Source: a virus
Length of the DNA stretch: 31,043 nt
Strand: one strand, 5' to 3'
IMG/VR virus record: IMGVR_UViG_3300020396_000024
Location: 1-31,043 of that record
Position numbers and translations under genes: made by a program. The notes beneath the pieces are model-generated. The model was not told the origin of the DNA. It made no database searches and saw only the letters and a list, made by a program, of their open reading frames with translations. Below are positions 3,923 to 16,530 of this stretch, piece by piece (positions within the stretch are counted from its first letter, which is position 1; each line of letters begins with the position of its first letter).

Positions 3923-5131
3923 ATGCAGATAACAACAACCAAGTATTACGATGAATTCTTAAGGTATTTTGATCTTGCCAAAAAGCAACAAGATCTGAGT
4001 AATCTTGGTCATGTTCCACACGCAGAATCAAAATTAGATGACGAACTAATGCATCACATTGAATTATATGATGTAGTAGAACGTAAGTATGCTGGATTTT
4101 CCCAAATAATTAATGATTGTTTTTATGGTTGGAATTCAGATCATCCATATTGGTCAAGAATGGAAGAGGGATTATATACACCACAAAGAATGGAAGTGGC
4201 AACTAATTGGAATTCTAAAAGAGACGAATTCGGATTAGAAGAATGGCTTTACATATTTATTCTTCACAGAGTATGTGGATCTGCAATTAATTATGCAACT
4301 AAACCTTCAGGTTACCATAACACTATTTTATTTAACTTACATGAATGTGAAACTATAGAAGAAATGTGTGAGGTGATCAAACATCATCCAACTCCATTTT
4401 ACACATCAGTAGGTTATCAATTTCCAGCATTTCCAAAACCACCAAAACCAGAAGGAAATGAAGATTCATTTGTAGGCATGTCAGGTTTTACAAAACCAGA
4501 ATATGTGTATAAAAGAGGTGGAGATTATTTCTTATGTGAATTTGCACCAAGAATGGCTAGAGACATGGCAAACTTCTTACGAGAAGGTGGTAAAAAAGAC
4601 TTAAGAGAATTAGGTGAATGGATGTTTAAATGGAACGCAGATAATGGATTAAGAGCTTATAGATTTCAATATGCTGCAGTTATTGCAGATGTTTGTGATT
4701 GGTACCCAGAATTTATGAATAGAGAATCAATGTTTTATTACGGCACAAATGCAGTAGAATGTATTGGTTATCTTGCAGATCCTGTTGAAAAGAAAGGTAA
4801 AAAATCAGAAGAGTTTTTGGATGCAGTTATGACTAAGATCTATGAAGATACTGGATCACTTCCATATAATGCAGAAGACGTAGCATGTGATTTTATTAGA
4901 TGGATTGAAAACTATCTAAGACCTGGAAAAGATTATGCACATATAAACATGGACACTTTGTGGAATTCTTCCTCCATTAAAGACCATCCTTATGGTAGGC
5001 AAAAAGCCATGTTAGATTTAGGATTAGTAAAAACATTCAATGATATGACTCAGTTTCCATCAGATGACAAAGTACTACAAAGTGCAGGCGTTTCTGTTGA
5101 AGACTATAAAAAAATGGTAGCAAAGACATGA
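3923..5131 (+). CDS. aGPT-Pplase-like thymine-modification protein, paralog 1
   Basis: 402 residues from ATG 3923 (MQITTTKYYDEF); the frame extends 3 codons upstream only with a TTG start, which is less likely. It is an all-helical protein with LHRVCGSAIN (near 140), ARDMANFL (near 230) and YPEFMNRESMFYYGTNA (near 260), a pattern resembling the HhH-fold alpha-glutamyl/putrescinyl thymine pyrophosphorylase family. In phages with hypermodified thymine that family moves an amino group or amino acid onto a pyrophosphorylated hydroxymethyl-uracil in DNA. The next gene is a diverged paralog coupled by ATGA, and a PLP enzyme follows. The family call rests on remembered pattern and context, not a search. 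Confidence 0.45.
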   Translation: MQITTTKYYDEFLRYFDLAKKQQDLSNLGHVPHAESKLDDELMHHIELYDVVERKYAGFSQIINDCFYGWNSDHPYWSRMEEGLYTPQRMEVATNWNSKRDEFGLEEWLYIFILHRVCGSAINYATKPSGYHNTILFNLHECETIEEMCEVIKHHPTPFYTSVGYQFPAFPKPPKPEGNEDSFVGMSGFTKPEYVYKRGGDYFLCEFAPRMARDMANFLREGGKKDLRELGEWMFKWNADNGLRAYRFQYAAVIADVCDWYPEFMNRESMFYYGTNAVECIGYLADPVEKKGKKSEEFLDAVMTKIYEDTGSLPYNAEDVACDFIRWIENYLRPGKDYAHINMDTLWNSSSIKDHPYGRQKAMLDLGLVKTFNDMTQFPSDDKVLQSAGVSVEDYKKMVAKT

Positions 5132-6240
5132 GCGAAGAATTAAAAATAAAAGAAATTAAAAAAGAAGTTAAACAAACACCCGATCAAGGTGTTTTGTTTA
5201 CGTTTGACGATGAAGTTACACAAGAATATAGGAACATTACATATGATGGAACTAATACAGATATAAAATTTAAGAAGAAGAAACCAGCAGAAAGTTGGAT
5301 GAAAGACTGGTCAGAAGAAATGAGATTAGATAAATTCTTTGAATTCTGTCATGAGTTTGATAAAAGAGAGGATAAATTACTTTTAGAAGATTATCAAATA
5401 TTTTCTCATAGATTACATTGGCATGAACATCCATATTGTTATATGATGAAACATGAAACTGACTTAGAGAAACTACTTTATTATACTATTGTGTTTTCAT
5501 TCTCTAATGAACACTGGGGGACTATTACAAAATTAATTAATCAGGGTGAAGAAAAGACTAGAGCACATTTTGTAGAAAATAGACATGCTAGAAACGATTT
5601 ATTTCAAATATATTATCCTAAAGGTACAATAGTTAAAGATTGGTTAATCGAAGGACCTAAGAAAGCAGCCAAAGATATGGCTCATATTTTAGAAGATTTA
5701 GAAAGACCATATACTATGATGGAGTTTGCTAAATTATTAGAAGCTTATTTTAAAGAACATCAAAACTTTAGATCACCTTTATATCCATGTAAAAATACAG
5801 CTAGATATGTAGCCATGAGTAGACCTGATCTTGTAGATCCTGAATCTATTTTATTCGGTGGAACTGGACACTTCGATGGTATGCAACAAGTGTTTGGAGG
5901 AGTTAATCTTAATGGCAAAGTAAAATATTCAATAGATTCAGATGGTCAGTTTATTGCAGAGAATAAGCACGCTGAAGAGTGGATTAGACAAATGGATGTT
6001 TTAGTAAATCATCCTAATAATCCAATGGAAAGCCAAAAATACTTAAACGTAGAAGATAAAACATGTTTCTTCTATAAGCATATAGCTATTAGTCATGGCA
6101 TTAAATCACCTACTAAGAGAATACCATACACATGGATATTTGATGGTCAATTTAACTTGGCAAAAAACCCCGACAAAGAAATTAATGTTAACGCAGATAC
6201 AACTCGCCACTTATGGGGCAGAGACTATCCAAACGAATAA
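5128..6240 (+). CDS. aGPT-Pplase-like thymine-modification protein, paralog 2
   Basis: 370 residues; ATG overlaps the previous stop (ATGA), so the two are translationally coupled. AKDMAHIL (near 190) and RPDLVDPESILFGGTGHFDG (near 235-255) align with ARDMANFL and the YPEFMNRES...YYGTNA region of paralog 1, with similar spacing. It lacks the LHRVCGSAIN segment, having a different sequence (TIVFSFSNEHWG) in its place, so the two probably have unequal roles, perhaps catalytic and structural in a heterodimer. The N-terminal 40 residues are Lys/Glu-rich. Biochemical role inferred only from family resemblance and the PLP enzyme next door. Confidence 0.45.
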   Translation: MSEELKIKEIKKEVKQTPDQGVLFTFDDEVTQEYRNITYDGTNTDIKFKKKKPAESWMKDWSEEMRLDKFFEFCHEFDKREDKLLLEDYQIFSHRLHWHEHPYCYMMKHETDLEKLLYYTIVFSFSNEHWGTITKLINQGEEKTRAHFVENRHARNDLFQIYYPKGTIVKDWLIEGPKKAAKDMAHILEDLERPYTMMEFAKLLEAYFKEHQNFRSPLYPCKNTARYVAMSRPDLVDPESILFGGTGHFDGMQQVFGGVNLNGKVKYSIDSDGQFIAENKHAEEWIRQMDVLVNHPNNPMESQKYLNVEDKTCFFYKHIAISHGIKSPTKRIPYTWIFDGQFNLAKNPDKEINVNADTTRHLWGRDYPNE

Positions 6241-6244
6241 ATAT

Positions 6245-7162
6245 ATGGCACACAACAAACACACAGAAAGTTTACAGAATCAAGATCTTAATTTAATGAT
6301 GCCTGACCGACAAGCTTGGTTAGATTTAGCAGGAGATTGGAAAGATCCATTCCCGGAACCTATTATCACTGAGCACGGTGGTTTAAAAGTAGTAAGAGAA
6401 GATTTAATGGGATTCGGATCTAAATGTAGATTCGGAGATATTTTAGTACAAAAGGCACCAACAGATACGTTAGTATATGTACAACCAAGATATGGATTTG
6501 CAGGTATATCACTTGCATATTTAGCGAAGAAGTACAATAAAAAACTAGTTTTATTTAGTCCTTCTCAAAAAGAAATTTCAGATCATCAGGCAATTTGTAT
6601 CGAAAGAGGTGCAGATATGAAATTTAGAAGAATAGCAGCAATGCCAAATTTAAACGCAATAGCAAAATCATGGGCAGAAGATAATAATGCAACATTTATT
6701 CCGTTAGGATTAAAACATGAATTAGTAACAGCTGCTGCAGTTAAAGTAGCATATGATCTTGCAGAGAAACATGGTTATCCAGAAGAGGTTTGGTCAGCTA
6801 TTTCTACAGGAGTATTACAACGTTCTTTACAAATTGCATGGCCAGATGCAGACTTCAATGCAGTTGCAGTGGCTCGTAATATTAAGAAAGGTGAAAGAGG
6901 TAGAGCAACAATGTGGTCACATCCTAAGGCATTTAACCAAAATGTACACCCTTCTAATTTCCCTCCATTTCCATCAGCACTTAATTATGATGCAAAAGCT
7001 TGGGAGTTTATGAAAAATCATGCAAAACCTGGAGCAATATTTTGGAATGTAGGTGGAGATCCTAAGCCAGATTTTATAAAAACAAAAGAATCAACTGATT
7101 CACAAAGAGAGTGGGGAGAAATTAGAGATGAAAAATTGAAACAACCACTAATTAGATCATAG
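6245..7162 (+). CDS. fold-type II PLP-dependent enzyme
   Basis: 305 residues from ATG 6245; the frame is open back to 6095, but that would overlap the previous gene by about 145 bases. GSKCRFGD holds a likely Schiff-base Lys in the GxKxR context of tryptophan-synthase-beta/ACC-deaminase-like enzymes. Then come GFAGISLAYLAKKY (cofactor or substrate loop), KKLVLFSP and ERGAD, and a late AISTGVLQRSL like the phosphate-binding SxGTGG loop. At 305 residues it is a compact version. Phage thymine hypermodification pathways use PLP enzymes on amino acids already joined to the base, which fits its place behind the aGPT-Pplase-like pair. An ordinary amino-acid lyase/deaminase is the alternative. Confidence 0.65.
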   Translation: MAHNKHTESLQNQDLNLMMPDRQAWLDLAGDWKDPFPEPIITEHGGLKVVREDLMGFGSKCRFGDILVQKAPTDTLVYVQPRYGFAGISLAYLAKKYNKKLVLFSPSQKEISDHQAICIERGADMKFRRIAAMPNLNAIAKSWAEDNNATFIPLGLKHELVTAAAVKVAYDLAEKHGYPEEVWSAISTGVLQRSLQIAWPDADFNAVAVARNIKKGERGRATMWSHPKAFNQNVHPSNFPPFPSALNYDAKAWEFMKNHAKPGAIFWNVGGDPKPDFIKTKESTDSQREWGEIRDEKLKQPLIRS

Positions 7163-7183
7163 AAATACTATACACAAAAAAAC

Positions 7184-7648
7184 ATGGCGAACATAGATAA
7201 CAAATGCGCAGATCTTGATATTCAAGATTATCACAAAGATACCAAAGATACATTTGGTTTACTCTTTGAAAAACAAAAAGAATTACAATCTAGATTAGGT
7301 TTCAATTTCGATGGTTGGACTATTAAAGAGATCGCAGATTTCTGGATGGTTAACAAACATGCAATGAGCGATGAACTAAATGAAATGTTCGATGCACTCG
7401 GTGGAATCAATGATGGTATTGGTAATGCAGGTTGGAAATACTGGAAGAAGGACAATGCTAAGACTCCTGAAATGAAAATAGAAGATCTTAGTAAAGAAGA
7501 CAAATTAGAATTATTTTATGAGTGGATTGATGGTCTTCACTTCTATATGAACTTTGCTATTTCTATTGGCATGACAAGTAAAGATATTGTTAACTTGTAT
7601 ATGGCTAAGAATGCAGAGAATCACGACAGACAAGAACGAGGATATTAA
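7184..7648 (+). CDS. all-alpha dimeric dUTPase/dCTPase-like pyrophosphatase
   Basis: 154 residues. The pattern ELFYEWIDGLHFYMNFAISI followed by LYMAKNAENHDRQERGY is typical of the dimeric all-alpha NTP pyrophosphatase family (dUTPase_2): the ExxD metal-binding helix and the KNxxNxxRQxxGY tail. An upstream helix with KQKELQSRLG also fits. It converts dUTP (or dCTP) to the monophosphate plus pyrophosphate, limiting uracil in DNA and feeding dUMP to thymidylate-type synthases. At the end of the modification-like operon it may supply dUMP for a modified thymine or clear unwanted dNTPs. Confidence 0.75.
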   Translation: MANIDNKCADLDIQDYHKDTKDTFGLLFEKQKELQSRLGFNFDGWTIKEIADFWMVNKHAMSDELNEMFDALGGINDGIGNAGWKYWKKDNAKTPEMKIEDLSKEDKLELFYEWIDGLHFYMNFAISIGMTSKDIVNLYMAKNAENHDRQERGY

Positions 7649-7669
7649 TCACACAACACACTCAAAAAT

Positions 7670-9073
7670 ATGCTATTAGATATAGAGCAAAAAGAAAACG
7701 AAGTTATTATCAGTTATTACGACAAAGAAGGCAAAGTGTCATTCAAAAGATACTCTGTTAATAAATTTGAAAATTGGGTAGTTACTGAAGAAAAAGATCG
7801 TTGGAAAGATGTTAAATTTAAAAACTGGGACAATCGTCCAATTAAGAGATCTATCTCAAGAAGTTTTAATAAATTTAGCTTGCTTTATTTCATGGATTCA
7901 TTGCCTGAAAGGGATCAAGAAGAAATCTTCGAATTTAATATGCCACGTACATACTTTGTGGATATTGAAACTGAAATTGTAGATGGTTTCCCAAAAGCAG
8001 AAGAAGCTAAAACCAGAATTCTATCATTCTCTATTATTACGCCTGAACGTAAAGCAATTGTTTTAGGTTTAGAAGATATGAGTTCAGATCAAATCAAAAA
8101 GATTGAAGATGATACCAATGCTCATTTTAAAGATTATGATCAGGATTGGGAATTCAGTTATTACAAGTTTGATGACGAGTATAACATGGTATATACATTC
8201 TTACATAAGTTTTTACCTAAGTTCCCAATGATGACTGGTTGGAACTTCATTAACTATGACTGGCAATATATAGTTAATAGATGTAAACGATTGCAAATAG
8301 ACCTGACTGACGTGGCAATCACTGGATCACTAGATAGAAACGACAGTAGACCATTACACATGGGAATCTTAGATTACATGCAATTATATGATAAGTATGA
8401 TAGATCAGTTGCTGTAAAAGAATCTAATTCATTAGATTTTGTCTCTAGCGCAGTATTAGATGTTGCAAAGATTAAATACACAGGTGGTTTACAAGAGTTA
8501 TATGAAAATAACTTCCAAAAATATATTTACTATAACGTGGTTGATTCATGTTTAGTATATTATATAGATAAACAACTTAGATCAATGGAAGTTCTATTGA
8601 CATTGGCAACTATCACAAGAATGCCACTTTATAAAGCTGCATCTCCAGTGGCAGTAACTGAGGCACTTATAGCTAGAAAGCTAATTGGTCAAAATAAAAA
8701 GATTGGAATGGAATGGAATAAAGAAGACGCTAAGAAAGATGGCAAATTTGAAGGAGCATTCGTTAAGCAACCTATTGTAGGTTATTACTCTGGAGTATCT
8801 GCATTTGATTTCGCATCTCTATATCCATCAATTATGCGTCAATTTAATATATCTCCGGATGCATTCGTTGAACAAGTAAATGAAATAGACATTCCAGAAA
8901 GAAGAAAAGACAAGAACGTAATTGTCTGTGAGAACGGAGTTGTTTATAGGAAAGAAGATAGTATTCTTAAAAAAATATTGGCAGATCTATATGGTCAACG
9001 TAAGGATTACAAGAAGACTTCCTATGAATATTATGAAAAAGCACACGAACTAGAAAAAAAATTAAAATCTTAA
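7670..9073 (+). CDS. 43: DNA polymerase (family B, gp43), N-terminal half of a split gene
   Basis: 467 residues: N-terminal domain, 3'-5' exonuclease and the start of the palm. Exo I is FVDIET (D98, E100), Exo II NFINYD (D197) and Exo III YNVVD (D292). Polymerase motif A is DFASLYPSI (D380). The chain runs on through the start of the fingers (YGQRKDYKK, near 441) and stops after HELEKKLKS, before motif B. The remainder is the separate gene at 13762. No frameshift is visible: the end is clean and followed by structured non-coding sequence. Both halves keep their catalytic residues, so they presumably assemble into an active enzyme. T4 gp43 is a single chain of about 900 residues; 467 + 402 gives a comparable total. 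Confidence 0.93.
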   Translation: MLLDIEQKENEVIISYYDKEGKVSFKRYSVNKFENWVVTEEKDRWKDVKFKNWDNRPIKRSISRSFNKFSLLYFMDSLPERDQEEIFEFNMPRTYFVDIETEIVDGFPKAEEAKTRILSFSIITPERKAIVLGLEDMSSDQIKKIEDDTNAHFKDYDQDWEFSYYKFDDEYNMVYTFLHKFLPKFPMMTGWNFINYDWQYIVNRCKRLQIDLTDVAITGSLDRNDSRPLHMGILDYMQLYDKYDRSVAVKESNSLDFVSSAVLDVAKIKYTGGLQELYENNFQKYIYYNVVDSCLVYYIDKQLRSMEVLLTLATITRMPLYKAASPVAVTEALIARKLIGQNKKIGMEWNKEDAKKDGKFEGAFVKQPIVGYYSGVSAFDFASLYPSIMRQFNISPDAFVEQVNEIDIPERRKDKNVIVCENGVVYRKEDSILKKILADLYGQRKDYKKTSYEYYEKAHELEKKLKS

Positions 9074-9084
9074 ATTTAGAAAAC

Positions 9085-9191
9085 ATGAATAATATCCTGA
9101 TATATAATATCATTAGCAGCGCTGCTATTATTCATACATACATCTAGATTGTAGATTAGACTGGGTCTTAAATAAAGGCCCATTGTAGTCT
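9085..9191 (+). ncRNA. structured leader upstream of nrdB
   Basis: Right after the polymerase stop. ATGAATAATA (9085-9094) pairs with TATTATTCAT (9126-9135); inside are GATAT/ATATC (9099-9111) and the palindrome TAGCAGCGCTGCTA (9114-9127), giving a possible three-way junction. Two further hairpins follow: ATCTA/TAGAT (9142-9156), and TGGGTCTT/AAGGCCCA (9162-9182) closed by AGAC/GTCT. No T run follows, so it is not an obvious terminator. It could be a 5' leader controlling nrdBA or a remnant of the element that split the polymerase. Pairings were read by eye and not folded. Confidence 0.45.
9099..9110 (+). promoter_or_regulatory. late-type promoter-like element before nrdB
   Basis: GATATATAATAT matches the GATATATAAW element found before the late genes, but sits 136 bases before the nrdB ATG and within the structured leader. 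It may be a promoter or simply one arm of the RNA structure. Confidence 0.3.
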
Positions 9192-9234
9192 CAACAGGAT
9201 TCTGTAAAAAAACTTAAATAAAAATAATAGCAAT

Positions 9235-10245
9235 ATGTCAAAACTCTTTAAAGAACGTCTAGAATATAAGCCGTTCGAATACCCTGAATATTATACCGAA
9301 GGCTGGCTTAAACAAGCCCAAGCATTCTGGTTACATACCGAAATCTCAATGCAAGGTGATGTAAAAGACTGGAATGAAAACTTAATGCCACATGAAAAAA
9401 ACTTAGTAGGTAATATTCTTTTGGGTTTCGCCCAAACCGAATGCGCAGTATCTGATTACTGGACTAACATGGTTACTGCTTGGTTTCCTAAACATGAAAT
9501 TAGACAAATGGCAATGATGTTTGGATCACAAGAGACAATACACGCTGTTGCATATTCATATCTTAATGAAACTTTGGGTTTGGAGGATTTCGCAGCATTT
9601 CTACATGAACCTGCAACTGCTGAGAAATTTGAATTCTTAACTTCAACTACAGCTGATTATACACATGAAGATTTACAAACAAATCCTACGGCAAGAAAAG
9701 AAGTAGCAAGATCATTGGCTATTTTTAGTGCATTTGCAGAAGGCGTTTCTTTATATTCATCGTTTGCAGTTCTATATTCTTTTCAAATGAGAAATCTTCT
9801 AAAAGGTATTGGGCAACAAATGAAATGGTCTGTAAGAGACGAAAGCTTACATAGCAAAATGGGATGCCAATTATTTAGAGAGATGTGTACTGAATATCCT
9901 GAACTATTTGATGAAGTTCATGCAGATGTAATTAAAGCAGCAGAATATATGGTTGAAATGGAGCATAAGTTTATTGATAAAATGTTTGAGCAAGGAGATC
10001 TTGCAAACATGGAAGCAGAAAACTTAAAACATTTTATTGCTAAAAGAGCTAACGAGAAAATTGCTGAACTTGGCTATAAAGAAGGTCCATTCATGGAATT
10101 AGATAACGATAAGGCTAGTCACTTAGATTGGTTCTATCACCTAACAGGTGGACATACACATACTGACTTTTTTGCAATCAGACCTACTGATTATGCAAAA
10201 GCAGGAGAAGACGAAAACTGGGACGAAGATGATTTGTTCGACTAA
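9235..10245 (+). CDS. nrdB: class I ribonucleotide reductase small subunit
   Basis: 336 residues, the ferritin-like radical-generating subunit that makes dNTPs with NrdA. Metal ligands: QTEC (E69), SQETIH (E100, H103), FAEG (E170) and RDESLH (E203, H206). The radical Tyr is Y107, seven residues after E100 as in the E. coli enzyme. The first ligand is Glu where E. coli class Ia has Asp84, a change seen in class Ic and some manganese-using enzymes. No N-terminal ATP cone. The C-terminus (NWDEDDLFD) is the usual acidic tail that docks on NrdA. It is 17 bases ahead of nrdA and both lie between the polymerase halves. Confidence 0.93.
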   Translation: MSKLFKERLEYKPFEYPEYYTEGWLKQAQAFWLHTEISMQGDVKDWNENLMPHEKNLVGNILLGFAQTECAVSDYWTNMVTAWFPKHEIRQMAMMFGSQETIHAVAYSYLNETLGLEDFAAFLHEPATAEKFEFLTSTTADYTHEDLQTNPTARKEVARSLAIFSAFAEGVSLYSSFAVLYSFQMRNLLKGIGQQMKWSVRDESLHSKMGCQLFREMCTEYPELFDEVHADVIKAAEYMVEMEHKFIDKMFEQGDLANMEAENLKHFIAKRANEKIAELGYKEGPFMELDNDKASHLDWFYHLTGGHTHTDFFAIRPTDYAKAGEDENWDEDDLFD

Positions 10246-10262
10246 TTTAATTAAATAATAGA

Positions 10263-12167
10263 ATGTACAGAGATAGAAATAAAAGCGAAGAACAGATCAG
10301 AGAAGAAAACATAAACTTGATTAAGAATAACGCAAAGACCGATGGTGATGTAAAAAACTTCGGTAAAGAATTAGGCTGGGAATTAGGTGTTGACTTTCCA
10401 ATTTGGGGAAACACAGAAATTTATATTAAAACAATAAGTAAAGGATATTGTTATCAAGACGAAACACCAAAAGACGCATATTGGAGAGTTGCTACTACTA
10501 TAGCAAAACGTTTAGGTAAACCTGAACTTGCATCGAAATTTTTTGATTATATATGGAAGGGTTGGTTAAATCTAGCTTCACCTGTACTTTCAAATACTGG
10601 ATTAGAAAGAGGTTTACCTATTTCATGTTTTGGTATTGATGTTGCGGATTCAATTCACGATATCGGTGCTAAAAATCTAGAGATGATGCTACTTGCCAAA
10701 CATGGTGGTGGTGTAGGTACAGGAATTAATCAAATTAGACCAGCAGGTGCAAAAATTACAGGTAATGGTACATCAGACGGAGTTGTACCTTTTTGCAAAA
10801 TATTTGACTCTACAATACTTGCCACTAATCAGGGTTCTGTTCGTAGAGGAGCAGCAAGTGTTAACATTGATATTGAACATCCTGATTTCTGGGAATGGTT
10901 AGAAATTAGAGAACCTAAAGGTGATGTCAATAGACAATCATTAAATTTACACCAATGTGCAGTAGTACCAGACGGTTTTATGCAAAAGGTTGAAGCTGGC
11001 GACAAAGAATCTCGTAAAAAGTGGGCTGCGCTCTTAAGGAAGCGTAGATCTACAGGAGAACCATATATCATGTACAAAGGAAATGTCAATAGAGCAAATC
11101 CAGAGGCATACTCTAAGAATGGTTTAAAAGTCTACATGACTAACATTTGTTCTGAGATTACACTACACACCGATGAGAATCATTCATTTGTATGTTGTTT
11201 ATCATCAGTAAACCTTGCTAAGTACAATGAGTGGAAAGATACAGATCTTATTTACACAGCAACTTGGTTTTTAGATGGTGTTATGGAAGAGTTTATTCAA
11301 AAGGCTAAATTCATGAGAGGGTTTGAAAATTCAATTAGATCTGCTGAAAAGGGTAGAGCTTTAGGACTTGGTGTTTTAGGATGGCATACATATTTGCAAG
11401 AGAAGAACATTCCATTTGATTCTTTATCAGCTTCATTCGAAACACGTAAAATATTTTCACAATTAAAGATAGAATCTGAAAGAGCATCTAGAGATCTAGC
11501 TACTGAATATGGTGAGCCATTATGGTGCGTAGGAACTGGAATGAGAAATACTCACTTAAGAGCTATTGCTCCAACAGTAACTAATTCTAAACTTAGTGGA
11601 AACGTTTCTCCAGGTATTGAACCATGGGCTGCAAATCTTTTAACGGAACAAACAGCTAAAGGCACTTTCATTAGAAAGAATCCAACACTAGAAAAGGTTT
11701 TAGATACTATTGGTAAGAATACTAAAACAACATGGGATAAAATATTAGAAGATGGTGGATCAGTATTAGGATTATCGTGGATAGAAGACTATTTCGTTTC
11801 ATCTTTCTCAGATAATGAAGGTACTTCGGGTATTCAAAAACCTTTAACTAAAAAACAATTAGAAAAATTACCATCATTAGAACAGGCTGATTATATTCCA
11901 ATGTCAGATGTATTTAGAACATTTAAAGAAATTAATCAATTAGACTTAGTTAGACAAGCTGGTATTAGACAACAATATGTTGATCAAGCTGCAAGTTTAA
12001 ATCTAGCTTTCCCAAAAGAAGCTGAACCAAAGTTTATTAATCAAGTACATTTAGAAGCATATAGAAAAGGTGTAAAAACATTATACTATATGAGAACAGA
12101 AAGTGTTCTTAGGGGCGATATCGCCGCAGCAGCAACTGATCCAGATTGTGCAGCATGTGATGGATAA
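10263..12167 (+). CDS. nrdA: class I ribonucleotide reductase large subunit
   Basis: 634 residues, shorter than E. coli NrdA (761) because the N-terminal ATP-cone (activity site) is absent, so dATP shut-off by that domain is not expected. Catalytic residues are in place: C122 (PISCFG), the N-x-C-x-E triad N294/C296/E298 (TNICSE), the partner Cys at 311-312, radical-transfer tyrosines Y608-Y609 (TLYYMRT), and a C-terminal CAAC pair (629, 632) for re-reduction. The neighbouring nrdB completes the holoenzyme. No intein or intron seen. A hairpin cluster and strong terminator follow. Confidence 0.95.
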   Translation: MYRDRNKSEEQIREENINLIKNNAKTDGDVKNFGKELGWELGVDFPIWGNTEIYIKTISKGYCYQDETPKDAYWRVATTIAKRLGKPELASKFFDYIWKGWLNLASPVLSNTGLERGLPISCFGIDVADSIHDIGAKNLEMMLLAKHGGGVGTGINQIRPAGAKITGNGTSDGVVPFCKIFDSTILATNQGSVRRGAASVNIDIEHPDFWEWLEIREPKGDVNRQSLNLHQCAVVPDGFMQKVEAGDKESRKKWAALLRKRRSTGEPYIMYKGNVNRANPEAYSKNGLKVYMTNICSEITLHTDENHSFVCCLSSVNLAKYNEWKDTDLIYTATWFLDGVMEEFIQKAKFMRGFENSIRSAEKGRALGLGVLGWHTYLQEKNIPFDSLSASFETRKIFSQLKIESERASRDLATEYGEPLWCVGTGMRNTHLRAIAPTVTNSKLSGNVSPGIEPWAANLLTEQTAKGTFIRKNPTLEKVLDTIGKNTKTTWDKILEDGGSVLGLSWIEDYFVSSFSDNEGTSGIQKPLTKKQLEKLPSLEQADYIPMSDVFRTFKEINQLDLVRQAGIRQQYVDQAASLNLAFPKEAEPKFINQVHLEAYRKGVKTLYYMRTESVLRGDIAAAATDPDCAACDG

Positions 12168-12177
12168 AATATAAAAG

Positions 12178-12222
12178 GTGTGGTTAAATCCACGCTTTAG
12201 GACCGGGATAGTTCTCGGAAAG
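12178..12222 (+). ncRNA. paired hairpins downstream of nrdA
   Basis: GTGTGG (12178-12183) pairs with CCACGC (12190-12195). CTTT-AGGA-CCGGGA (12195-12208) pairs with TCTCGG-AAAG (12213-12222) around loop TAGT. With the terminator that follows they make three hairpins in a row in one of the most GC-rich stretches of the window. A 3'-end-processed or regulatory RNA is possible; I do not recognise the family. Confidence 0.4.
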
Positions 12223-12260
12223 AGGCCAGACGTATCGCTACTGTCTGGCCTCGCTTTTTG
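12222..12260 (+). terminator. strong terminator after nrdA
   Basis: GAGGCCAGAC (12222-12231) and GTCTGGCCTC (12243-12252) form a perfect 10 bp stem followed by CGCTTTTT. It ends the nrdBA transcript and insulates the following gene. Confidence 0.85.
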
Positions 12261-12481
12261 GCCCTAATTATCATATTAACAATTTAAGGTTAATAAAATT
12301 AGATATAATGTGAAACCTTTTAAAAGATAAGGGTATAATAGTCCAATTAACAAAGAAAAATGAACAATACTTCATTATACTTATTAACAAAGACTGCTAA
12401 AAATAACAGCAGCACATCTATCTTTACTCCTAGAACTGTTATCACAGACTGATAGATTTATTTTAACCAAAACATTTTAAT
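12261..12481. promoter_or_regulatory. AT-rich region upstream of the outer-membrane protein gene
   Basis: Contains two TATAAT boxes, GATATAATG (12302-12310) and GGGTATAATAG (12331-12341), either of which could be the -10 of a promoter for the downstream gene after the nrdA terminator. A 30-codon ORF (12360-12452) lies within it. Confidence 0.4.
12360..12452 (+). CDS. possible 30-aa leader peptide
   Basis: ATG after an A-rich tract reads MNNTSLYLLTKTAKNNSSTS and ends FTPRTVITD at TGA 12450-12452. It sits 20 bases after a TATAAT box and 29 bases before the next gene. Ser/Thr/Asn-rich, no family. It may be chance. Confidence 0.25.
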   Translation: MNNTSLYLLTKTAKNNSSTSIFTPRTVITD

Positions 12482-12898
12482 ATGAAAAATTTTATTTTAA
12501 CATTAGCCCTTGCGGCTTTAACAACATTCGGTGCAAATGCACAGAACACAAAAGGTGACTGGTACGTAGGTACTGGCGATATTACTAACACGGCTTGGAC
12601 TGATTTATCAATCCAGCCAATGATCGGATATGCATTCGCTGACAACTATATGGTTGGAATGAATGTATCTCAAGCAGATTCAACTGAAGACATGGTCTTA
12701 GGTCTAGAAGGAAGATATTTCCACAAAGGATTCTTTGGCTATGTTGCGCTTAACGATTTTGATTTTGATCAACTTCAATTAGGTGTAGGTAAAATGTTTG
12801 CTTTCAACAAAGGCATGATGTTTGTAGATCCAAAGATCGTTTACGATCTAGGAATGGAAACAACTAACCTTCAAATCGGATTTGGTTTAAAGTTCTAA
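12482..12898 (+). CDS. outer-membrane beta-barrel protein (phage moron)
   Basis: 138 residues. Residues 1-20 are a classic signal peptide (K2, hydrophobic core ILTLALAALTTF, ANA before Q21). The mature part has about eight short alternating strands (WYVGTG, LSIQPMIGYAF, YMVGMNVSQ, VLGLEGRYF, FGYVALNDF, LQLGVGKMF, FVDPKIVYDL, LQIGFGLKF) and ends in Phe, the BAM recognition residue, fitting an 8-stranded barrel of OmpA-transmembrane/OmpX/Ail size. It stands between two terminators with its own promoter-like boxes, so it is probably expressed independently. A role in altering the infected cell surface, for example blocking superinfection or masking a receptor, is inference. It could be host-derived. 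Confidence 0.8.
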   Translation: MKNFILTLALAALTTFGANAQNTKGDWYVGTGDITNTAWTDLSIQPMIGYAFADNYMVGMNVSQADSTEDMVLGLEGRYFHKGFFGYVALNDFDFDQLQLGVGKMFAFNKGMMFVDPKIVYDLGMETTNLQIGFGLKF

Positions 12899-12923
12899 AC
12901 TAAAACTGATTTGGTTAAATGTT

Positions 12924-12957
12924 AAGCCCAAGTTTCTAGGATCTTGGGCTTTTTTTA
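12924..12957 (+). terminator. terminator after the outer-membrane protein gene
   Basis: AAGCCCAAG (12924-12932) pairs with CTTGGGCTT (12943-12951), a 9 bp stem with a 10-base loop, then a T run. With the terminator after nrdA it makes the barrel gene a self-contained unit. Confidence 0.85.
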
Positions 12958-13014
12958 TGAAACATTTCGAAGCAAATCTATATAATAATAAATCATTATC
13001 AAAAACAAATAATT
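12958..13014 (+). promoter_or_regulatory. promoter-like region before the clamp gene
   Basis: After the terminator, CTATATAATAATAAATC (about 12979-12995) gives a TATAAT-type -10 region about 25 bases before the ATG at 13015. A new promoter is needed here because the upstream gene is terminated. Confidence 0.4.
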
Positions 13015-13758
13015 ATGAAACTTAAATTAGATCGTATTGACCAGCATGCTTTAACAGCATTCATCAACCGAGTAAAACCAATTGATTCCTTCATCTACAT
13101 GAAGATTGCAAATGGAACAATTAACTCAACAGTTTACCTTCCACAAAGAGATGCCGTAAAGCACCACTCAGTAGAAGCTAGTACCATTTTTCAAGTAGAA
13201 GCATGGCCAGAAACTGACAAAGAAATGAAAATTGCATTCTTTGAAGGAAACAAAGTTATTGAAGCTATTAAGCACTTTGATGCAGATGCAATTAAAGGTG
13301 AAATAGAATTCATCGAAAATGACAACGAATTAGTAGCAGCTTCGCTACGTATTTTTAATGACGAACTAGAAATTACTCTAGCTTGTTCAGAACCATCTTT
13401 AGGATTTAAAGATCTTACTCAAGATCAAATTGATGTAATCTTTGCAAAAGAAGACAGTACGTTTGATTTTAACTTCGACACTCATATGATTGGAAAAGTT
13501 AAGAACCTATTCTCTCTTGACAAAGATGAAACATTTAGCATCAAATCAGATGTAACAGGAGTTAGTGTAAGCGGTAAATCATTTAGCGTTGTAATTAACC
13601 CAGATACAAGCGGAAACGGTGAAGTAACAGTTTATAAAAAGTACTTAAACCTGCTTGACAAAGACGAACAAACAGTACATGTCTCTGGATCAAAAGTTGT
13701 ATTCAACTCAAACGATACAGACACTTTGTTAACAGTTTCAACTTGTCAAACAGCATAG
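13015..13758 (+). CDS. 45: probable sliding clamp (gp45-like)
   Basis: 247 residues, close to T4 gp45 (228). Beta-rich, acidic, no catalytic motif. It begins MKLKLDRIDQHALTAFINRV, comparable to the MKL-start and first helix of gp45. Strand-rich segments such as FSIKSDVTGVSVSGKSFSVV and VHVSGSKVVFNS fit a two-domain clamp subunit. It ends 3 bases before the C-terminal polymerase half, its expected partner. In T4 the trimeric clamp gives polymerase processivity and also activates late transcription with gp55 and gp33; gp55 is encoded in this window. Identity rests on size, fold pattern and position; sequence similarity to T4 gp45 is weak. Confidence 0.6.
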   Translation: MKLKLDRIDQHALTAFINRVKPIDSFIYMKIANGTINSTVYLPQRDAVKHHSVEASTIFQVEAWPETDKEMKIAFFEGNKVIEAIKHFDADAIKGEIEFIENDNELVAASLRIFNDELEITLACSEPSLGFKDLTQDQIDVIFAKEDSTFDFNFDTHMIGKVKNLFSLDKDETFSIKSDVTGVSVSGKSFSVVINPDTSGNGEVTVYKKYLNLLDKDEQTVHVSGSKVVFNSNDTDTLLTVSTCQTA

Positions 13759-13761
13759 TAC

Positions 13762-14970
13762 ATGAACGTCGAAGAGCTAGAAAATAAATCTATAGAAGAA
13801 TTAACTGATAATGAGGCGAAGCTGCTTGTAGATCACTACAAGCAGCTGTCTGCCAAATATACAGCATATGAACAAGCAGTTAAGTTAACACTTAACTCTA
13901 TCTACGGAGCCTTCGGTAATAAATGGTTTCACTTTTTTAATATTGACATTGCCGAGTCAATTACAAAACAAGGCAAAAATGCAATTCTTTATTCAGAGAC
14001 TATTCTCAATAAGTATGTTAATGATTTCTGGCACAAGGACACTGCAGTACACTCTCATTTTGGGATTAAGGTAAAGGGTAAAATAGAAAAACCATCAGTA
14101 ATTTATATTGATACAGATTCTTGTTACGTACAGTTTCAAGATTTATATGAATCTATAATTTGGCCAGAAGAAACTGAGAAGATGGAAATAGATGTTTTCA
14201 TTTTAGCTCTTTATGGATTTAGACTTAGAGATTATATCACTAAGTGCATGCAGAAATATGCAGATAAAAGAAACTCAGATAATTATTTGATGTTTGAATT
14301 AGAAGCACTTGCATATAACGGTATTTGGATGTCTAAGAAAAAGTATATTCAGAATATTGCATGGGATGATAAGTTAGAGATCACAGACAGACATACTTCA
14401 TTAAAGAAGATTAAAACAATTGGATTTGATACTATTCAATCATCAACACCTAAATTTGCAAGAGAGAAATTAGTAGAAGCACTTAAAATTATATTTAAAA
14501 GTAGAGTAACTCCAACTGCAGAAGATCTTCAATCTTTAGTAGTCTTTATGAAAGAGACTAAAAAACAATTTAAACTTGCAGATATTGACGAGATCTCGTT
14601 TAATAGAAGAACTAATAATATCGACAAGTATATTGTAGATGATCAGAAGGAATTTCAAATTGGTCTGAAATGTCCAGCAAATGTTAAAGCAGCAGGATAT
14701 TATAATTACTTGTTGAATAATAATAAAAAATACAAAAACAAATATAAAGTTATAGGTAACGGTGAAAAGCTAAAGATTTATAATTGTAAATCACCAATAT
14801 CAGAGGTATATGCATATATGCCAGGAGATCATCCTTATGAGATTGCACCAGAAATCGATTATGACACTCAATTTGAAAAGGCAATGATTGACCCTCTCAA
14901 TAGAGTATTAACAGCAATTGGTTTACAAACACTAGACACTAACCTAATTTACGCATCGTCGTTATTTTAA
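13762..14970 (+). CDS. 43: DNA polymerase (family B, gp43), C-terminal half of a split gene
   Basis: 402 residues: rest of the fingers, palm and thumb. Motif B is KLTLNSIYGAFGN (K41, Y48, G49) and motif C YIDTDSCY (D117, D119). The first 35 residues are a charged helix (ELENKSIEELTDNEAK...) whose start resembles the end of the N-terminal half (HELEKKLKS). Neither half can polymerise alone: motif A is in the other gene 4.7 kb upstream. The end, YASSLF, could be the clamp-binding tail that T4 gp43 carries at its C-terminus. It starts 3 bases after the probable clamp gene, so clamp and catalytic half should be made together. Confidence 0.93.
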   Translation: MNVEELENKSIEELTDNEAKLLVDHYKQLSAKYTAYEQAVKLTLNSIYGAFGNKWFHFFNIDIAESITKQGKNAILYSETILNKYVNDFWHKDTAVHSHFGIKVKGKIEKPSVIYIDTDSCYVQFQDLYESIIWPEETEKMEIDVFILALYGFRLRDYITKCMQKYADKRNSDNYLMFELEALAYNGIWMSKKKYIQNIAWDDKLEITDRHTSLKKIKTIGFDTIQSSTPKFAREKLVEALKIIFKSRVTPTAEDLQSLVVFMKETKKQFKLADIDEISFNRRTNNIDKYIVDDQKEFQIGLKCPANVKAAGYYNYLLNNNKKYKNKYKVIGNGEKLKIYNCKSPISEVYAYMPGDHPYEIAPEIDYDTQFEKAMIDPLNRVLTAIGLQTLDTNLIYASSLF

Positions 14971-14980
14971 AAATAATATT

Positions 14981-15142
14981 ATGAACACACCAACATTTTA
15001 CGAAACAATTAAAGGTTTAATAAAGCAATATCCAAATGATATGCAATTAGGAAACGCAGTTAGGCGTTTAAATTGGAAAATAGAAGAGGCTAATAAACCT
15101 GATCCAAATCAATTAGAAATACAATTTCCAAAAGACAAGTAA
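14981..15142 (+). CDS. small hypothetical protein, 53 aa
   Basis: ATG 14981 (MNTPTFYETIKGLIKQYPND...) to TAA 15140-15142, filling the gap between the polymerase half and the next gene, which starts one base later. An A/T-rich leader precedes it. Helical, soluble; no family recognised. Confidence 0.6.
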   Translation: MNTPTFYETIKGLIKQYPNDMQLGNAVRRLNWKIEEANKPDPNQLEIQFPKDK

Positions 15143-15143
15143 T

Positions 15144-15353
15144 ATGCACGTAGAATTAACAGAAAGGCAAAAAGAATATGTTGAGCAATATCAATGGATT
15201 CTCAATAGACTCGGTGAAATACAACACGAATTATCTTCTTTAGGAACAGAGTCAACTTCCCTTATTAATAGATTAAAAGAAATAAGAAATGCCGAAGCTG
15301 TTGAATTTCCAGACGCAAACTTAATAGACACACTTAAGAAAGCCGACGAATAA
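15144..15353 (+). CDS. small coiled-coil protein, 69 aa
   Basis: One base after the previous stop. Residues 5-50 form a heptad-rich helix pair (LTERQKEYVEQYQWILNRLG, then IQHELSSLGTESTSLINRLK), like small coiled-coil phage proteins. The terminator hairpin overlaps its stop codon, so it is the last gene of this transcript. Function unknown. Confidence 0.6.
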   Translation: MHVELTERQKEYVEQYQWILNRLGEIQHELSSLGTESTSLINRLKEIRNAEAVEFPDANLIDTLKKADE

Positions 15354-15366
15354 GTCGGTTTTTTTA
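15341..15366 (+). terminator. terminator overlapping the end of the 69-aa gene
   Basis: CCGAC (15343-15347) pairs with GTCGG (15354-15358) and is followed by a run of seven T. The TAA stop codon lies in the loop, so the hairpin is partly coding. Confidence 0.7.
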
Positions 15367-15380
15367 TTTAGAAACAAATG

Positions 15381-15400
15381 AGGTTATTATGATATAACCT
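15381..15400. promoter_or_regulatory. inverted repeat upstream of uvsX (operator or promoter)
   Basis: AGGTTAT-TATGAT-ATAACCT is a perfect 7 bp inverted repeat with a 6-base spacer, 21 bases before the uvsX ATG and just after a terminator. The centre reads TATGAT, a plausible -10. A dimeric regulator site or an mRNA hairpin are both possible. Confidence 0.4.
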
Positions 15401-15420
15401 TAAACAAAACATTTACATAC

Positions 15421-16530
15421 ATGGCAAAGAAAGATTTTAGTTTCGCAGATATAAACTCAGAGTTAAAGACATTGAATCCACTAGGATCAATCATGGCAGA
15501 CTCTACATTCAGTGAAGTTACAGAGTGGATCGACACTGGTAATTTCCACTTAAATGCATGTGTTAGTGGTTCACTATTCGGTGGATGGCCTAACAGCAGA
15601 ACATGCTCAATAGCTGGACCATCAGGTACAGGTAAAACATTCTTAGTATTAAACTCTGTTAGAAAGGCAATTGAAATGGGTTACAATATAATCTACTTTG
15701 ATTCTGAAGCAGCAGTTGATAAAGATCAAATGGAAAAGTTTGGTATTGACGTAACAAAAGTTAATTACCAACCTATTAATACTGTTCAAGAATTTAGAAC
15801 ATCAGTTACTACGCTTACTAGCAAAATGCAAGAAGTAAAACGCAATGGTGGAAAAACACCAAAGATCATGATGATTCTTGATTCTGCAGGTAACTTAGCA
15901 ACTCAAAAAGAAATTGATGACGCTAGATCAGGATCTGAAAAAGCAGATATGACAAGATCTAAGGTTCTAAAATCTATTTTTAGAATCATTATGACACCAT
16001 TAGCAGATCTTAAGATACCTTTTATTTTCACTAATCACACATATCAAACGCAAGACTTTATTTCAAGACAAGTCGCAGGTGGTGGAACTGGACCAGAATA
16101 TGCAGCATCAATTGTTTTATATTTAGGAAAGGCACAACTTAAAGATACAGGTGGAGATAAAGCAGGTATTATTGTAACAGCTAAGCCTAATAAGAATCGT
16201 TTTGCAAAACCAACTAATATTAAATTTCATTTACACTTTACAGAAGGTATGAATGCATATGTTGGATTAGAACAATACATCGATTGGGAAGACATTGGTA
16301 TTACTAAAGGTATTATTGAAAAGGGTGAGAAGATTCCTAAAGCAACATCAAGAAATTGGATATGTAAGCATTTAGATCACACTGTACCAAACAAAGAATT
16401 CTTCACAGATAAAGTATTTACTCAAGAAATCTTAGAGAAGATTGAAAGTAGAATCAAACATGTGTTTAATTACAACACAGAAGAAAGAGAAATTGATTTA
16501 GAAGCTATATTAGAATCAGATGAAGATTAA
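15421..16530 (+). CDS. uvsX: UvsX/RecA-like recombinase
   Basis: 369 residues, close to T4 UvsX (391). Walker A is GPSGTGKT (66-73), Walker B is in IMMILDSAGNL (about 151-161), and the core has the RecA-type pattern NHTYQTQDF followed by the Gly-rich DNA-binding loop VAGGGTGPEY. The acidic C-terminus (ESDED) is usual for this group. It forms filaments on single-stranded DNA for strand exchange, repair and recombination-dependent replication, working here with gp41 and gp46/47 encoded downstream. It heads the recombination/replication operon and the next gene overlaps its end by 11 bases. Confidence 0.95.
   Translation: MAKKDFSFADINSELKTLNPLGSIMADSTFSEVTEWIDTGNFHLNACVSGSLFGGWPNSRTCSIAGPSGTGKTFLVLNSVRKAIEMGYNIIYFDSEAAVDKDQMEKFGIDVTKVNYQPINTVQEFRTSVTTLTSKMQEVKRNGGKTPKIMMILDSAGNLATQKEIDDARSGSEKADMTRSKVLKSIFRIIMTPLADLKIPFIFTNHTYQTQDFISRQVAGGGTGPEYAASIVLYLGKAQLKDTGGDKAGIIVTAKPNKNRFAKPTNIKFHLHFTEGMNAYVGLEQYIDWEDIGITKGIIEKGEKIPKATSRNWICKHLDHTVPNKEFFTDKVFTQEILEKIESRIKHVFNYNTEEREIDLEAILESDED

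Follow-up and report, generated by a model that had tools for sequence, protein, structure and literature searches.

A T4-type DNA polymerase encoded in two separate genes: a break at the fingers tip common to a wide phage lineage and its probable origin in one old fission

This article concerns the DNA polymerase of IMG/VR virus record IMGVR_UViG_3300020396_000024, whose full 31,043 nt (positions 1 to 31,043) we call the window. A preliminary description, made by a model from the letters alone, had claimed that the polymerase is split into two genes 4.7 kb apart. Two open reading frames (ORFs) of 467 and 402 aa do lie on the same strand exactly where it had placed them, with 4688 nt between (Table 1). 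The first, our N half, matches residues 88–487 of RB69 gp43 (E 1.7e-33) and the second, our C half, residues 554–832 (E 1.8e-19), while the Pfam DNA_pol_B model is divided between them, positions 23–137 falling in the N half and 152–237 in the C half. These matches bear out the proposed partition: the exonuclease motifs and motif A lie in the N half, motifs B and C in the C half. The window's polymerase is thus confirmed as a T4-type (gp43) family B enzyme (PolB), homologous to gp43 over the exonuclease, palm, fingers and C-terminal part, but encoded, here and in related loci, as two ORFs and not as the single polypeptide of T4-type gp43. PHROGs already holds the pieces as separate families, and the whole record has one C-half match.

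The RB69 alignments put the break between residue 487 and about 554, and therefore in the fingers domain; it falls after the helix with the QRK motif and before the helix leading into motif B, which is the tip of the fingers. It follows that two chains must complete the active site. Neither chain alone holds a full metal or nucleotide site, since motif A and the first fingers helix belong to the N chain, motifs B and C to the C chain. The C half ends in a conserved hydrophobic ...ASSLF, of which L401 and F402 are invariant in 33/33 rows. T4-type polymerases bind their clamp through the C-terminal tail.

Table 1. The two polymerase genes of the window, the genes between them and their nearest neighbours
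Feature	Coordinates	Strand	Support
dUTPase / nucleoside triphosphate pyrophosphohydrolase-like gene, directly 5' of the N half	7184..7648	+	Pfam dUTPase_2, phrog_173
PolB N half, 467 aa: exonuclease motifs, motif A (D380), first fingers helix (R444, K448)	7670..9073	+	RB69 gp43, Pfam, phrog_2062, fold match
nrdB, between the halves	9235..10245	+	Pfam Ribonuc_red_sm; cluster in 124/124 loci, window included
nrdA, between the halves	10263..12167	+	Pfam Ribonuc_red_lgC/lgN; cluster in 124/124 loci
Small ORF, 138 aa, between the halves	12482..12898	+	No Pfam/PHROG match; cluster in 37/124 loci
Conserved ORF directly 5' of the C half, called clamp-like	13015..13758	+	Cluster in 124/124 loci; no Pfam/PHROG match
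PolB C half, 402 aa: second fingers helix / motif B (K41, N45, Y48), motif C (Y115-x-D117-T-D119), thumb	13762..14970	+	RB69 gp43, Pfam, phrog_1918
UvsX-like recombinase, downstream of the C half	15421..16530	+	Pfam RecA, phrog_97

Our scans of IMG/VR gave 293 stretches with a relative of the N half and 218 with a relative of the C half, and the best 80 of each were kept. From 127 loci (designated by L numbers), we set apart the phages PAU and MA9V-1 and the record LR756500, leaving a set of 124 that includes the window. Three loci whose contigs end inside the C half (L009, L056 and L073) were left out of the count, and in three of the 124 (L090, L097 and L120) the N half is cut or broken. Several of the 124 are views of one contig; those 121 whose halves are both full-length collapse to 63 distinct sequence pairs. 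Every one of the 124 loci, all of which hold both halves, has the order N–nrdB–nrdA–clamp-like–C on one strand, with 3654–5772 nt between the halves. No intact polymerase was found among L001–L160, where no ORF carries both parts. The preliminary description had named two things that would overturn its claim, an assembly rearrangement and a second full-length polymerase gene. The window is a 31-kb fragment, which leaves room for the first, but independent contigs agree on the order just given and the isolates PAU, MA9V-1 and PTm1 carry the same split, so we regard a rearrangement or chimera as refuted and give it next to no credence. As to the second, a search with DNA_pol_B at E<=0.001 in 21/21 larger related records, none of whose viral contigs is certified complete, turned up the known halves, or pieces of them, and nothing else, though it did not extend to other polymerase families. 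In L090, a 212-kb contig, the N half and the clamp-like ORF each appear as two overlapping matches (3973–5350), perhaps through sequence errors.

The catalytic residues, said by the preliminary description to be kept, prove invariant: 12 positions in 67/67 distinct N halves and 10 in 65/65 distinct C halves, so that all 22 catalytic or motif positions tested (Exo I–III, motifs A, B and C) are kept throughout the clade. Median ratios of nonsynonymous to synonymous substitution (dN/dS) of 0.058 for the N half (174 pairs) and 0.071 for the C half (293 pairs), over pairs with dS 0.2–1.5, indicate that both halves are under strong purifying selection. This invariance and the similar constraint on both halves argue against parted functions, whereby the N half would be a free exonuclease, the C half something else, and another polymerase would replicate the genome. 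So does the fact that each half retains its own motifs, the N half motif A with the first fingers helix, the C half motifs B and C. Such a reading draws some strength from the confinement of our search to the DNA_pol_B family and from jumbo-phage group 2.2 (Lak-B8, PTm1), which is reported in PMC7824862 to have a minimal split Pol III alpha besides PolB; we consider it very improbable. A structure model of the N half superposes on RB69 gp43 with a template-modelling (TM) score of 0.70 by query length, and its residues 352–388, which hold motif A, have a predicted local distance difference test (pLDDT) score below 50. A motif A strand modelled so poorly on its own would fit a need for the other chain, although it proves nothing.

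The preliminary description had spoken of split gp43 genes as known in a few T4-like phages; the window's split, however, is no local oddity and is shared by a large lineage. The polymerase is broken at the same place in PAU, Chryseobacterium phage MA9V-1, Tenacibaculum phage PTm1, Lak-A1 and Lak-A2, LR756500, LR756504, LR745206 and LR756501, and in LR756502 it was also found as two halves. Members of this lineage include Lak megaphages and phages of 462–735 kb, and the distance between the halves runs from 2.2 kb in MA9V-1 to 222.6 kb in Lak-A1 and 280.7 kb in LR756504. Across the wider set (nine N halves and five C halves) every tested position is kept except K448. The recorded hosts are Chryseobacterium, Tenacibaculum and Prevotella, together with Sphingomonas paucimobilis for PAU, a host strain since moved to Sphingobacterium. 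On the strength of these hosts the split lineage is likely one of Bacteroidota phages.

In some of these relatives the C half is itself divided. In PTm1, LR756500 and Lak-A1 it is split again at motif C by split-intein-like parts with an endonuclease-like ORF between, and in Lak-A2 only about 0.36 kb separates the parts at motif C (these second splits lie at L163 11522–14328, L164 27721–31121, L304 3564–6802 and L166 2908–5059). The nrdA of LR756500 (L164 19374–23545) looks intein-split too, again with an endonuclease-like ORF between. C halves of this kind in PTm1, LR756500 and the Lak phages lend some colour to the idea that the window's chains are joined after translation or transcription, by a split intein or a trans-splicing intron. 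At the window's junction, where the only intein profiles run were those of Pfam, no intein-like sequence was seen by eye at either end; positions 7000–15500 gave no Rfam match at E<=0.1, and each half has its own start and stop. We hold joining of this kind to be very improbable.

To place the split historically we have a maximum-likelihood tree of the N part, with 39 rows (38 of them different) and midpoint rooting only, from which near copies had been thinned at 75% for split rows and 80% for intact rows. Contig-cut genes (L207, L212, L213, L283, L285 and L294) and L290, which has the same split as L287, were left out, and L282, an intact-type gene cut by a contig end, was dropped from the final tree. 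The lineage's 16 split rows (15 distinct) make up one side of a branch with 100/100 support; the long rows of Lak-A1 and MA9V-1 were flagged by the tree program, and their inner placement is unsure. On the other side stand 20 intact polymerases and three further splits, those of Aeromonas phage 25, L281 and L287, which are likewise broken at the fingers tip. An approximately unbiased (AU) test rejected the grouping of all splits as one (p=3.8e-6). No re-fused member of the split lineage was found. Two of the further splits deserve description. In L281 (3267–6394), a viral contig, an ORF with matches to PHROG homing endonucleases sits within the polymerase gene at the fingers tip, and in that contig a stop occurs in the C part close to motif B. 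In L287 (4602–7444) and L290 (5297–8010) a 69-aa ORF without a PHROG match lies between the pieces.

What might have broken the gene? The preliminary description had found no endonuclease left between the window's halves, and Pfam and PHROGs likewise detect none among the four ORFs there. No ORF of at least 60 aa in L001–L160 resembles the endonucleases of the relatives, nor do PHROGs give an endonuclease match for any of 15 ORFs from between the halves of relatives, taken singly from 15 of the less common clusters. Outside the window's clade matters stand differently. For 17 N halves and 10 C halves, all from beyond that clade, we scored the nearest ORF on either side, with one locus for each near-copy group (L220 for six contigs, L219 for three, L216 and L225 for two each). 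A homing-endonuclease ORF came next on 7/27 junction-facing sides and on 0/27 outer sides (Fisher p=0.010). This side count replaced a rough neighbour expectation (0.25 expected, 4 seen) that had used hand-merged gene numbers and scored Lak as 0. The endonuclease adjoins the 3' end of the N half in LR756500, Lak-A1 (8 nt away), Lak-C1 (overlapping), L220 (62 nt) and L219 (39 nt, on the other strand), and the 5' end of the C half in PTm1 (overlapping) and Lak-A1 (45 nt, on the other strand). All seven match phrog_3339, named 'homing endonuclease', and all but one also match Pfam DUF7487. Relatives with an endonuclease at this site, which the preliminary description had recommended looking for, therefore exist in Lak-A1, Lak-C1, LR756500, PTm1 and the contig groups L219 and L220. 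In Lak-A1 the endonucleases sit at the broken ends though the halves are more than 200 kb apart.

We would explain these observations as follows. A single fission in the ancestor of a broad T4-related phage lineage would have parted the gene at the fingers tip, the likeliest cause being a homing endonuclease of the DUF7487 / PHROG 3339 type that invaded it. In the window's clade the endonuclease would later have been lost, nrdB, nrdA and the clamp-like gene coming between the halves, while in some of the largest relatives the halves would have dispersed to 100–280 kb apart. Each chain would contribute one of the fingers helices, the N chain the first and the C chain the second; the 3'–5' exonuclease and the aspartate of motif A would also come from the N chain, the thumb and the aspartates of motif C from the C chain, and the two chains would associate non-covalently into one replicative polymerase. 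Like the preliminary description, we infer a two-chain enzyme; the association is predicted from homology, from the constraint on both chains and from the precedent of phage 25. That this is a T4-type replicase of two associating chains, born of one old and most likely endonuclease-linked fission and later dispersed, we hold with good confidence. The more exact proposition, that endonuclease-driven fission became permanent in the lineage's ancestor and left a heterodimeric replicase with its metal site split over two independently placed genes, strikes us as somewhat likelier right than wrong.

Several observations weigh against this account, and most of them concern the endonuclease. Two of the seven adjoining endonucleases, those of L219 and of the Lak-A1 C half, are on the opposite strand. 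Twenty of the 27 junction-facing sides have none, including all those of PAU, MA9V-1, LR756504, LR745206, LR756501 and LR756502. The endonuclease family is common in some of the genomes (about 12 places in LR756500, by a hand-merged tally), and its arrival may postdate the split. The side count draws on few cases, was drawn up once the first of them were known and treats sides that are not independent; p becomes 0.022 when Lak-B6 and Lak-C1 are removed. L220 has a further endonuclease (7365–8579; phrog_681, Pfam DUF723) on the other strand, 421 nt before the N half, with a 70-aa ORF between that may not be a gene. If that endonuclease is counted as the outer neighbour the result is 7/27 against 1/27 (p=0.050). 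As to the enzyme itself, the fingers residue K448 is Q in PAU and MA9V-1 (2/9 N halves), the correlation of N and C distances (r=0.90) is expected from linkage alone, and the C-half model is poor (pLDDT 53), both models being of single chains.

These points give substance to a rival history, in which ordinary recombination split the gene and moved the halves, and homing endonucleases settled at the broken ends afterwards, living free-standing beside essential genes. The abundance of the family in some of the same genomes suits it, as does the split of L287 and L290 at the same place with just the 69-aa ORF between. The same caution is voiced in PMC2988022 for phage 25, a relative of which, 44RR, has its gene divided by an untranslated spacer. 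The outer endonuclease of L220 also speaks for this history and weakens the case for endonuclease-driven fission. The excess of endonucleases on junction-facing sides tells against later colonisation, as does L281, where the endonuclease ORF lies inside an otherwise intact-type gene at the fingers tip, although the C part is broken in that contig. We lean away from later colonisation while taking it seriously, and retain endonuclease-driven fission as our preferred explanation.

The genes around the two halves are largely those of a T4-like phage. The names nrdB and nrdA given in the preliminary description stand, by Pfam; the other two names have no profile support. That of an outer-membrane protein for the 138-aa ORF is unverified, because the ORF has no Pfam or PHROG match and its cluster occurs in 37/124 loci. 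A clamp identity for the ORF directly 5' of the C half found no support: hhalign against T4-type gp45 gave a probability of 0.3, the best Protein Data Bank (PDB) sequence match had E 0.57, and Pfam and PHROGs offer no support either. It does have relatives close to the C half in PAU, MA9V-1 and PTm1 (probability 96.5, E 8.6e-10). Also near the halves are a DnaB-type helicase, a T4-type portal, a prohead protease, and a calcineurin-like phosphoesterase followed by an AAA protein, a pair that we read ourselves as a gp47/gp46-like arrangement. An ORF at 6095–7162 matches a PHROG family that bears the name threonine dehydratase and also, weakly and below the Pfam cut-off, PALP; it is an odd neighbour for replication genes. 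The non-coding 9074–9234, 3' of the N half, contains a perfect 14-base palindrome, TAGCAGCGCTGCTA.

Split gp43-type polymerases are already known, and the annotations of isolates from this lineage already list two or more polymerase genes. What we have not seen in print is one break common to a lineage, with the halves dispersed and endonucleases at the broken ends of some members; the literature we searched, which reached few subscription papers, holds no account of a shared lineage-wide break. It is usual to present split replicative polymerases as oddities found in a handful of phages, and it is the fixation of the split across a lineage that makes this one of interest. At least three other polymerases have broken at this spot too, which suggests that the fingers tip is a place where family B polymerases naturally come apart. 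The lineage offers ready-made two-chain enzymes for studying how a split active site assembles, and annotation that expects one full-length gene will miss or miscount such a polymerase.

Fractured genes with split inteins and homing endonucleases were reportedly described by Dassa et al. in 2009, and the PolB of phage MIJ3 is counted among such cases. The relatives resemble these in having an endonuclease between pieces, whereas the window's junction, by eye, has no intein parts at the ends of the pieces. Aeromonas phage 25 (NC_008208) is close in kind: its T4-type PolB, too, is divided between two genes at the fingers tip, and its 43A and 43B co-purify and show polymerase activity (PMC2988022, citing Petrov et al. 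2010). Its halves are adjacent with a homing-endonuclease gene between, and by the record note 43B also holds an intron; the window has neither an endonuclease that we could find nor a short spacer, its 4688 nt being filled by nrdB, nrdA and two more ORFs. On the tree the phage 25 split is independent and sister to T4. Rhodothermus phage RM378 also has PolB in two distant genes, 57 kb apart, but the break is elsewhere, between exonuclease and palm, giving a 352-aa frame (exonuclease) and a 532-aa frame (the rest). Other split polymerases are the MIJ3 PolB (PMC6892783) and those of OM43 phages (PMC10580990), while the 'split' passages in the available part of Iyer et al. (PMC7824862) concern Pol III alpha and not PolB. 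A preprint on Jug phages (PMC12363816) states that DNA polymerase genes of Bacteroides/Phocaeicola phages are often split by endonuclease sequences, though this may be another polymerase; PMC2993671 and PMC10448857 give general background. Nearest of all are the window's own relatives. PAU (gp105/gp110), MA9V-1 (ORF135/138) and PTm1 share the break and the side of the tree, and are already annotated with two or three polymerase genes. The portion of the MA9V-1 paper available (PMC10537231) lists both ORFs without the word 'split', and PTm1, whose C half is divided again, has its gp239 deposited as 'intein-containing split DNA polymerase precursor'. These three differ from the window in their intervening genes and are about 23–34% identical to it. 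Lak-A1, LR756500, LR756501, LR756504 and LR745206 have the same break and tree side as the window, but in the Lak megaphages and LR phages the halves lie about 10 to 280 kb apart, and Lak-A1, Lak-C1 and LR756500, unlike the window, have homing endonucleases at their broken ends.

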